Below, piece after piece: positions 20,548-22,439 of a stretch of DNA of 64,000 nt (position 1 is the first letter of the stretch; every line of letters begins with the position of its first letter). The DNA comes from Caenispirillum bisanense. GTDB lineage: Bacteria > Pseudomonadota > Alphaproteobacteria > Rhodospirillales > UBA2165. Below the pieces are notes generated by a model that was not told where the DNA came from, searched no databases, and worked only from the letters and a program-made list of their open reading frames with translations. Made by a program: the position numbers and the translations under genes. The stretch is from the NCBI GenBank assembly GCA_945877815.1, contig CAMDWJ010000022.1, positions 1 through 64,000 on the forward strand, in the 5' to 3' direction.

Positions 20548-20982
20548 ATGTATTCAAGGAATAAACTCATTGTTGCCGGGATCGTCGTCGTGTTTGTCGG
20601 CGTCGGCGCGATGTACACCTTTGAGGTCGGTCCATTCAAAGTCGCGCAGGACGCGGCGTCAGACGCGTTACGCAAGGCATTCGCAGGCAATACCATCAGT
20701 TACTCCGGCAAGGGACGCGGCGGAAATACGACAATTTATTACGGGCCCGACGGTCGGATGAAGGCGGTTACCGCCACGGTCTCCTCGCCCCTCGAAGGGA
20801 CTTGGCGTACCAAGGCGCCCGGCCAGTTCTGCCAGCGCTACGACGGCCGCGACGAATCCTGCAACAAGGTTTCGCTCGATAAAGAGGTCGCCAAATTTCA
20901 CAACGACGACGGTAAACTGCAATTCGAGGCCAAGATCCTCCAGGGCGATCAGGTCAAAATGCCCGAACCCAGGAAAAAATAG
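20548..20982 (+). CDS. Membrane-anchored hypothetical protein (DUF995-like)
   Basis: 144 residues. A single N-terminal hydrophobic segment (LIVAGIVVVFVGVGAMYTF) anchors or exports a small soluble domain. That domain has the pattern FAGNTISYSGKG...IYYGPDGRMKA, GTWRT...CQRY, ESC, NDDGKLQF, which recalls the DUF995-type periplasmic proteins, with two cysteines that could form a disulfide. GGGGAG precedes the ATG. A strong terminator lies 30 bp downstream. Confidence 0.65.
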   Translation: MYSRNKLIVAGIVVVFVGVGAMYTFEVGPFKVAQDAASDALRKAFAGNTISYSGKGRGGNTTIYYGPDGRMKAVTATVSSPLEGTWRTKAPGQFCQRYDGRDESCNKVSLDKEVAKFHNDDGKLQFEAKILQGDQVKMPEPRKK

Positions 20983-21043: not shown

Positions 21044-21071
21044 GGCCGATATCCGGACCGCCTTGGCGGGC

Positions 21072-21128
21072 AAAAAAAGCGGCGTCGCGATGGATATCGA
21101 GACGCCGCAAGGTCACTGGGGTGTACGC
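21072..21128 (-). ncRNA. Putative small RNA, copy 1
   Basis: Predicted ~57-nt transcript on the minus strand. It starts 7 nt after a -10 box and begins GCGUACACCCCAGUGACCUU, unpaired and C-rich. It then folds into an 8-bp stem GCGGCGUC/GACGCCGC (21101-21108 with 21079-21086) with an inner CGAT/ATCG helix and a GGAT-derived loop, followed directly by U7 (21078-21072). This is a complete sRNA unit: promoter, short body and intrinsic terminator. A second copy lies 275 bp away with a compensatory base-pair change in the stem. The unpaired C-rich stretch could pair with purine-rich ribosome-binding sites. No known family is recognised. Confidence 0.6.
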
Positions 21129-21134
21129 ACGCGA

Positions 21135-21162
21135 ATACTAAGATAGATTCGTAATTGGTCAA
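21135..21162 (-). promoter_or_regulatory. Sigma70-like promoter of sRNA copy 1
   Basis: On the minus strand TTGACC (21162-21157), a 16-bp spacer and TAGTAT (21140-21135). The ~75 bp upstream (to ~21237) is very AT-rich, like an UP element. The same hexamers and spacing recur at copy 2. Confidence 0.6.
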
Positions 21163-21345
21163 TATAGATTCATCAATCTGGGATTTTTTATTCGTTTTTA
21201 TTTTATTTTTATTTAAATAAAGTTTGGGAAAATATTGGATAAAAATTGAAATAAAAGCCGCGTACGATAGGTTCTGAAGCCCCGGCCTTATGAGGCATTC
21301 GTTGCCGTACCGAGGATCCGTTTGATCTGCGAGGAGCGCACGCAC

Positions 21346-21403
21346 AAAAAAAGGCGGCGCCACGATGGATATCGGGGCGCCGCAAGGCCACTGGGGTGTA
21401 CGC
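21346..21403 (-). ncRNA. Putative small RNA, copy 2
   Basis: Same architecture as copy 1: predicted 58-nt minus-strand RNA with the identical 5' end GCGUACACCCCAGUG, stem GCGGCGCC/GGCGCCGC (21376-21383 with 21354-21361), the same inner CGAT/ATCG helix, and U7 (21352-21346). Compared with copy 1, a T-A pair in the stem is C-G here, so base pairing is preserved while sequence changes, which is evidence that the RNA hairpin is under selection. The wider duplicated blocks are about 21072-21237 and 21346-21512. Confidence 0.6.
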
Positions 21404-21409
21404 GATCGA

Positions 21410-21437
21410 ATACTACGATGTATTCGTACAGCGTCAA
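21410..21437 (-). promoter_or_regulatory. Sigma70-like promoter of sRNA copy 2
   Basis: On the minus strand TTGACG (21437-21432), 16-bp spacer, TAGTAT (21415-21410), with an AT-rich upstream tract to ~21512. The spacer sequence differs from copy 1 while both hexamers are kept. Confidence 0.6.
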
Positions 21438-21581
21438 TATAGATTCTTAATTCCGCAACTTTTTATTTGTTTTTATTTTACATTTATTTGAATAAACATT
21501 CGATAAAATTTTAAGTAACCCGACGCCGAAAGGCGCCCCCAGCAAAGCCGGAGCCTCGTCTGTCGGTCGCGGACGTGATGC

Positions 21582-22439
21582 TCAGTGAAGCGCGTCGATG
21601 TGGGATTTAGCCGCCAGCGCGCTGATCGCTTCCATGCTGAAGCGGCGCAATTTTAGATCCTTCAACAGATCGATCTCAATGACCTGTTCGGGTTCGAGAT
21701 GCTGGGCGAGCAAGGTTTCAGCGAAGCGAATCAGATCGCGCGTCTGACCCGGATAGGCGAGCACGTTGCTCAGCAGCTCGCGGCGGATCAGCGTTGGGAA
21801 TTTGAGGATTTCGAGGGTCAACAGCTTTTTGACCGAGATCGGGATTCGCATCGAACGATACATGGTATCGAGCGCAAACGAATAAATCCCGAAATCGAGC
21901 TGGCCTGCGACGTCACGAGTGAAGGAACGGAACTCGTCGATGAAGGAGCTGGCAGGTATCTGGCCGTCCAACAGGCGCCGCACCACCGCCAGGAACTGGC
22001 GATAGCGCCGCCGCGCCGGGGTAACCCGGCTGCCGAGTTCGGCTTCAAGGGCGCGGATTTCGGCCGCGCGGAAGCGTTTTTCGATCAGCGAGGCGGCCGA
22101 CTGCTTCACGTCGGGCGACAGGGTCTGCTCGGCGATCAAATGGAACAGGCGCTCGAACTTGTCACGCTGCTTGGTCGTCATTCCCTCGACTGACCCACCG
22201 AGCGGCACCAGCGCCGCCATGCCGACGAGCGGGTCGTGCGAATAGATGGCGGCGACGGCCGAGGCCTCGTTGATGATGTCGCCCTTGCGGAAATCGTCGG
22301 TGATGACGAAGCGATCGTTCGAGGCAACGGTCAAATAACGACCGAGCTTGGCGCAGGCGATGAAATGGTCGGCGAGATCATAATCCCGGCCCTCGCGGTC
22401 GGAGGCGAGTTCGATGCCCTGCGTCTCCGCCAACTCCAT
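21582..22439 (-). CDS. Hypothetical protein, mostly helical
   Basis: 285 residues, no signal peptide. The N-terminal part (VASNDRFVITDDFRKGDIINEASAVAAIYSHDPLVGMAALVPLGG) looks like an alpha/beta domain. The rest is helical and charged, with KFERLFHLIAEQTLSPDVKQSAASLIEKRF and ISVKKLLTLEILKFPTLIRREL. I do not recognise the family. It is monocistronic: the sRNA pair lies downstream and a ~160-bp AT-rich gap upstream, where GTTAA-N5-TTAAC (22548-22562) is a possible operator. Confidence 0.65.
   Translation of the reverse strand: MELAETQGIELASDREGRDYDLADHFIACAKLGRYLTVASNDRFVITDDFRKGDIINEASAVAAIYSHDPLVGMAALVPLGGSVEGMTTKQRDKFERLFHLIAEQTLSPDVKQSAASLIEKRFRAAEIRALEAELGSRVTPARRRYRQFLAVVRRLLDGQIPASSFIDEFRSFTRDVAGQLDFGIYSFALDTMYRSMRIPISVKKLLTLEILKFPTLIRRELLSNVLAYPGQTRDLIRFAETLLAQHLEPEQVIEIDLLKDLKLRRFSMEAISALAAKSHIDALH

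Follow-up and report, generated by a model that had tools for sequence, protein, structure and literature searches.

A tandem pair of predicted small RNA genes in Caenispirillum bisanense with an upstream region resembling Tad/Flp pilus promoters

Two similar blocks lie on the minus strand of the 64-kb window (the whole stretch of DNA that was analysed), and they raise the question of what such a repeat encodes and where its parts came from. The blocks form a gapless direct repeat (21072-21232 and 21347-21507; 161 nt, 80% identity, spacing 275 nt) and carry, in the same order, an AT-rich tract, TTGAC[C/G]-N16-TAGTAT, the 15-mer GCGTACACCCCAGTG, five bases, a hairpin and seven Ts. The first-pass annotation had described two minus-strand blocks with a full sRNA layout, an identical 5′ end and predicted RNAs of 57-58 nt, and our analysis confirms this description. 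The 15-mer, hereafter the leader, forms the 5′ end and is the same in both copies, and the predicted RNAs measure 57 nt in copy A (21072..21128, minus strand) and 58 nt in copy B (21346..21403, minus strand), both folding strongly. These copies match the model at 98.2 and 99.7 bits, respectively. In copy A the leader spans 21114-21128, the terminator stem-loop 21079-21108 and the T7 run 21072-21078; the corresponding parts of copy B are 21389-21403, 21354-21383 and 21346-21352. A whole-genome search at E <= 0.001 returned just these two copies.

The pair sits between a 285-aa gene on the minus strand (21582..22439), which serves as a positional anchor, and a convergent 144-aa gene on the plus strand (20548..20982), which adjoins the sRNA in the other genome of the genus as well; neither has a Pfam or NCBIfam match. 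The 285-aa protein belongs to a widespread uncharacterised family: among 297 genomes of the order, 179 have a match at E <= 0.001, in some cases a weak one. A peptide reading of the blocks was rejected, since the sole GTG frame is alike in A and B and shifted in the sister genome. Each copy has its own predicted promoter, a Rho-independent terminator and no conserved reading frame, the make-up of a tandem sRNA gene with intrinsic terminator. On these features the tandem genes, predicted to be transcribed, are best regarded as a new and small family of sRNA-type genes that is ordinary in kind.

The core promoters are sigma70-like, TTGACC-N16-TAGTAT in copy A (21135..21162, minus strand) and TTGACG-N16-TAGTAT in copy B (21410..21437, minus strand), and both patterns from the promoter scan are kept in the sister genome. 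The pattern alone is weak evidence because the scan yields three sites in 1 kb against a mean of 1.1 (sd 1.1) in shuffled DNA. The three copies agree in three stretches, namely GAATCT-N-TATTGAC surrounding the -35 element, CGAA within the spacer and TAGTATTCG at -10 (9/9). The earlier statement that the hexamers are kept while the spacer drifts is thus incomplete. Read off the alignment, an inverted repeat CGAA-N12-TTCG overlies the core promoter as a candidate operator (21132..21151 in copy A and 21407..21426 in copy B, both minus strand); it is present in all three sRNA copies, and none was seen in the Tad promoters described below. Just 5′ of the -35 element, all three copies also have GAATC (21167-21171 and 21442-21446 in the window). 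GANTC is the methylation site of alphaproteobacteria, and we take GAATC at this position to fit it.

The promoter of each copy bears on another reading of copy B, in which its RNA would be the 3′ end of the mRNA of the 285-aa gene, processed or terminated there. Copy B does lie on the same strand, 3′ of that gene, and by eye no T-run terminator is visible between the two in the window. Yet each copy has a promoter of its own, copy A lies behind the terminator of copy B, and the gene and the sRNA of the sister genome are separated, by eye, by a hairpin that is rich in GC and has T-runs. We regard a processed mRNA end as very improbable and continue with independently transcribed sRNA genes as the preferred reading.

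The hairpins of both copies consist of 8+4 bp with one mismatch and a four-base loop, followed by seven Ts. Their folding energies stand well apart from those of dinucleotide shuffles (z -4.9 for copy A and -3.8 for copy B; 0/200 shuffles as good for each), and the sister copy folds with z -2.8 (1/200 shuffles as good). A simple terminator scan listed neither hairpin among its sites, an omission probably due to a mismatch inside the stem; the fold shows both. One stem pair varies over the three copies, as C-G, U-A and, in the sister genome, U.G. The compensatory T-A to C-G change noted at first reading is thus real, with T.G in the sister genome, but it fails as covariation support: 11 of the 12 pairs are invariant, and the observed score, from three sequences in two genomes, was reached by 342 of 500 shuffles. 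We have accordingly rejected covariation as evidence, and the word covarying here describes one pair and carries no statistical support. The modelled structure is credible through its energy and U-run, not through covariation.

Conservation was first sought at the DNA level in 60 genomes, four of which gave matches: the genome itself (G000), the one other genome of the genus compared (G001) and two further genomes (G022 and G008) that are taken up below. The sister genome holds a single sRNA copy between the same two flanking genes, with TTGACG-N16-TAGTAT, a leader identical at 15/15 positions, the same CCTT and a stem that is kept with a shorter loop. This syntenic copy strengthens the claim of tandem sRNA-type genes. 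Identity among the three copies is 58-68% on the 5′ side of the leader and 63-67% on its 3′ side, and the adjacent gene shows 60.4% identity between the two genomes at third codon positions. At the latter rate a 15/15 leader match has, by our own arithmetic, a chance of about 5 in 10,000; copies A and B had supplied the definition of the leader before the sister genome was compared. Sites common to two of the three copies number 24 for A and B, 12 for A and the sister copy and 9 for B and the sister copy, which suggests that the tandem duplication postdates the split of the two genomes, a pattern that gene conversion could mimic.

A covariance model built from the three copies was used to search 317 genomes of the order, and outside the two copies here and the one in the sister genome nothing exceeded 30.1 bits. 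At E <= 0.1, 48 of the 317 genomes had a match; among the 26 matches viewed, those outside the genus resemble the hairpins of terminators or else other GC-rich stems, in some cases within coding sequence. Similarly, the 13-mer GTACACCCCAGTG, allowed up to two mismatches in 148 loci, gave six isolated matches beyond the sRNA loci (L023, L059, L125, L133, L142 and L147), none of them with a comparable hairpin behind it by eye. The leader pattern had no occurrence in viral contigs, no match in plasmids and one record in a genome collection, that of the sister genome (the records of the genome itself are possibly absent from that collection). In another family of the order, a C-rich leader, CTCACCCCAGCCACCTC, stands ahead of a GCGGCG terminator hairpin (L041, minus strand, about 1480-1560; 30.1 bits), its relation to the present genes being uncertain. 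Conserved homologues with pairing changes, expected in relatives by the first-pass annotation, are barely there (one relative, one variable pair), and the search of the order with a covariance model, here one made from all three copies, gave nothing comparable elsewhere in the 317 genomes. As far as these searches reach, the sRNA appears to be known so far in one genus alone, from two genomes and three copies.

The absence of a known family, also claimed at first reading, holds: Rfam 15 at its gathering cut-offs gave 0 matches in the 64-kb window, and a permissive search of 701 bases gave 14, every one below its cut-off. Among the latter, suhB/mmgR (alphaR8, SisA-D; RF00519), whose cut-off is 41 bits, reached 15.4 bits (21065-21139; E 2). 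AbcR1 and AbcR2 are sibling sRNAs in tandem arrangement. They and SisA-D resemble the present pair in that two or more related sRNA copies occur in one alphaproteobacterial genome, as the accessible text on SisA-D/alphaR8 describes (PMC12559287), but no Rfam model reaches its cut-off for the present sRNAs. Our literature search, over texts that were in part abstracts or excerpts, returned no name for this sRNA and no link of such a tract to Tad promoters.

Another point of comparison is GsrN of Caulobacter. The 5′ half of this alphaproteobacterial sRNA contains a C-rich loop, which the accessible part of the report presents as the most conserved portion of the RNA and proposes to meet G-rich mRNA sites (PMC5869019). 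Here too a C-rich loop lies in the 5′ part: in copy A the predicted fold places ACCCCAG in a weak 5′ hairpin, and in copy B and the sister copy its pairing is weaker or takes another form. The same text describes GsrN as a 106-nt RNA with a sigma-T (general stress) promoter (PMC5869019), whereas the present RNAs have 57-58 nt and a TTGAC/TAGTAT promoter, and no GSR-type Pfam domain occurs among the six neighbouring proteins scanned. The two are set apart by description.

What distinguishes the locus lies upstream of the promoter. An AT-rich array precedes copy A (21183..21256, minus strand, with the motif TTTATTTAAATAAANNNNAAATAAAAA at 21195-21221) and copy B (21459..21516, minus strand, with the motif at 21470-21496). 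The tract had been a minor element of the layout at first reading, and it proves to be a regulatory region in common with Tad pilus loci. The DNA matches in G022 and G008 are confined to it (82% over query positions 1-48 in G022; 21/21 in G008), and that of copy B to the Tad promoter of G022 has an E-value of 9.4e-6. In G022 the tract lies 3′ of the orthologue of the 285-aa gene and directly 5′ of a TadE gene; in G010 it is likewise 3′ of that orthologue and 5′ of a Tad-domain gene, so that the orthologues of the neighbour gene stand ahead of Tad genes in both. In G008 the tract is directly 5′ of a Tad-domain/VWA gene. Within the family, the motif also precedes Tad-domain genes in G002 (two mismatches) and G012 (three mismatches), and an acidic protein in G004 (three mismatches).

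A search of the 317 genomes for the motif TTTATTYAAATAAANNNNAAATAAAAA with zero mismatches gave the two sRNA copies, G010 and G022, and no other place. When up to two mismatches are allowed, genomes outside the family add 11 places, compared with 3 there for the reversed control; four of these adjoin Tad-domain or Flp genes (L102, L103, L104 and L105, with L104 counted by its likeness to L102), one lies ahead of a TPR protein that is perhaps, as a guess, TadD-like (L098), and six are without a Tad or Flp neighbour (L096, L097, L099, L100, L101 and L106). We further note that at L102, L104 and L105, in two other families of the order, the array lies near locus position 1500, and that at L104 and L105 it stands between an Flp pilin and a divergent Tad-domain gene. 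Its recurrence at Tad/Flp loci of two other families suggests that the Tad pili of the whole order have a regulatory element in common. Elsewhere in the genome itself, the one-mismatch palindromes L071 and L072 show no comparable layout by eye.

The position of the tract relative to the promoter is also shared. From tract core to TTGAC there are 59 nt in copies A and B, the sister genome, G002 and G008 (where the core position was set by alignment) and 61 nt in G010 and G012; G022 deviates, with TTGATA 50 nt from the core. The sRNA copies thus have the array at about 59 nt before TTGAC that marks the Tad-pilus promoter region, a spacing of 59-61 nt found in four of the five Tad promoters, two genera having the region behind the same neighbour gene. 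They differ from these promoters in leading into a 57-58-nt RNA gene and not into Tad genes. When the five Tad promoters were each aligned locally with A and with B, nine of the ten pairs beat 300/300 shuffles and one beat 299. The tract of the sister genome is the fairer test because A and B helped to find some of the Tad promoters, and it gives weaker values (z 4.7, 4.1, 2.7, 3.8 and 0.0).

Such similarity could arise by convergence of AT-rich DNA, for example in generic UP elements or in targets of H-NS-like silencers. The DNA is of low complexity, and at three mismatches the reversed control is about as frequent as the motif (15 against 22 rows; the three-mismatch places examined exclude 11 in G005, G013, G016, G018 and G023). 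The confinement of the zero-mismatch motif to four places among 317 genomes, the equal distance to TTGAC, the alignments that beat dinucleotide shuffles and the same neighbour gene all speak against convergence, which we hold to be quite improbable. As judged from these alignments and positions, the sRNA upstream region appears to be homologous to the Tad/Flp promoter region of related genera.

The pilus genes themselves are absent from the genus as sampled. PF13400 (Tad) occurs in 8 and PF04964 (Flp) in 9 of the 24 family genomes, and neither domain occurs in G000 or G001 (completeness 100% and 90%); PF07811 (TadE) was not found in G000. In neither genome of the genus, then, does a gene of the two Pfam families PF13400 and PF04964 stand behind the region. 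The simplest history would be that the operon was lost in the genus and that its promoter region was retained and now drives the sRNA. Alternatively, an ancestor may have had both an sRNA and a Tad operon under similar regions, the lineages then losing one or the other with no take-over. The data leave the order of events unfixed, and in G002 and G012 the Tad promoter lies on a contig without the 285-aa neighbour gene in the stretch read, as an older sRNA would allow. Against such an older sRNA, sRNA-like matches do not exceed 30.1 bits among the 315 other genomes searched in the order, and the Tad operon occupies the same position in G010 and G022. We consider an older sRNA improbable, and loss of the operon with retention of its promoter region remains our preferred history.

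A function for the RNA would most readily reside in its leader. By analogy with GsrN, as presented in the accessible text (PMC5869019), ACCCCAG is the likely seed. Both genomes were scanned for RYTGGGGTGT, the complement of ten leader nucleotides with G-U allowed, which gave 9 sites in G000 and 12 in G001 against 15 and 5 for the reversed control. These counts show no enrichment. Two of the G000 sites and one of the G001 sites are the opposite strand of the sRNA genes themselves; the other 7 + 11 include no pair of loci related by blastn. At L141 in G001, near locus position 1500, a site ends four bases before the ATG of a 212-aa ORF that is NYN-like by eye, and at L128 in G000 the opening codons of an ORF, lipoprotein-like by eye, contain a site; this gene differs from that at L141. 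The earlier proposal that the C-rich leader targets ribosome-binding sites is plausible by the GsrN analogy, but the scan offers no convincing or common site. Base pairing through C-rich sequence is the probable mode of action of the RNA; the scan of the two genomes gave no convincing target, and targets, if any, may be met via shorter or imperfect pairing.

This lack of a target site common to the two genomes is what would be expected of a relic, in which a retained pilus promoter fires into a nearby terminator and yields a short RNA without function, the conservation being that of promoter and terminator. The absence of the Tad operon beside its retained promoter region agrees with such a relic. 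It does not account for the leader, a part belonging to neither promoter nor terminator that is identical at 15/15 positions in three copies whose flanks are 58-68% identical, nor for the keeping of the gene in two copies. A functionless relic thus seems to us unlikely, though deserving of real weight, and we return to a trans-acting sRNA pair.

The array also resembles published targets of MucR, and the genome encodes two MucR/Ros proteins. In the available text on Sinorhizobium fredii, the motifs of MucR1 have Ts periodic at 10-11 bp, and the pilus assembly (cpa) genes are among those that MucR1 represses (PMC8857273). That on Brucella MucR describes a preference for AT-rich DNA with T-A steps and a disfavour of A-tracts (PMC5881533), and a further source, in its accessible portion, places MucR near the Brucella sRNA gene mavR (PMC12772402). 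Compared with the MucR-silenced promoters described in these texts, the present array is similarly AT-rich, with T-A steps and what may be repeats at roughly half-turn or turn spacing (PMC8857273, PMC5881533), but it contains A-tracts, which MucR disfavours (PMC5881533). At a fixed 11-bp period, the shuffles out of 500 that equalled or exceeded the observed value numbered 465 for A, 29 for B, 22 for G001, 109 for G010, 120 for G022, 64 for G012, 343 for G002 and 92 for G008; in copy A this period is not significant. For a spacing of AAAT at about 5.5 bp (half-turn), a period picked after the 11-bp results had been seen, the counts out of 1000 were 0 for G010 and G022, 2 for G002, 9 for A, 18 for B, 40 for G008, 90 for G012 and 328 for G001. 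The resemblance to published targets leads us to infer a MucR-type silencer in the timing of the RNA; the pair is possibly under MucR (H-NS-like) control, a fit that is at most suggestive.

We therefore favour, with a probability of roughly 0.55, a trans-acting sRNA pair with its own promoters and terminators, a taken-over promoter of a lost pilus operon, MucR-type silencing and pairing through ACCCCAG. Most likely the promoter region of the lost Tad/Flp operon was taken over and would now drive the sRNA pair; a MucR-type silencer on the AT-rich array would set the time of RNA production, and the invariant ACCCCAG, displayed in the small 5′ hairpin, would pair with G-rich sites of mRNAs. More tentatively, the locus may record the birth of an sRNA that can be traced, in which a silencer-controlled pilus promoter outlived its operon and gained a terminator together with a C-rich seed; selection as a regulatory RNA would have followed, and after it the tandem duplication in one species. 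We hold this fuller history to be possible.

A step-by-step view of the origin of a new bacterial sRNA gene is rare. In the present case both a one-copy and a two-copy state can be identified, as can the anchoring neighbour gene, the donor promoter and what that promoter drives in relatives. The pilus promoter region held in common is what would raise the finding above an ordinary sRNA family, and the AT-rich array, which recurs at Tad loci in other families, provides a testable regulatory motif for the Tad pili of the order.
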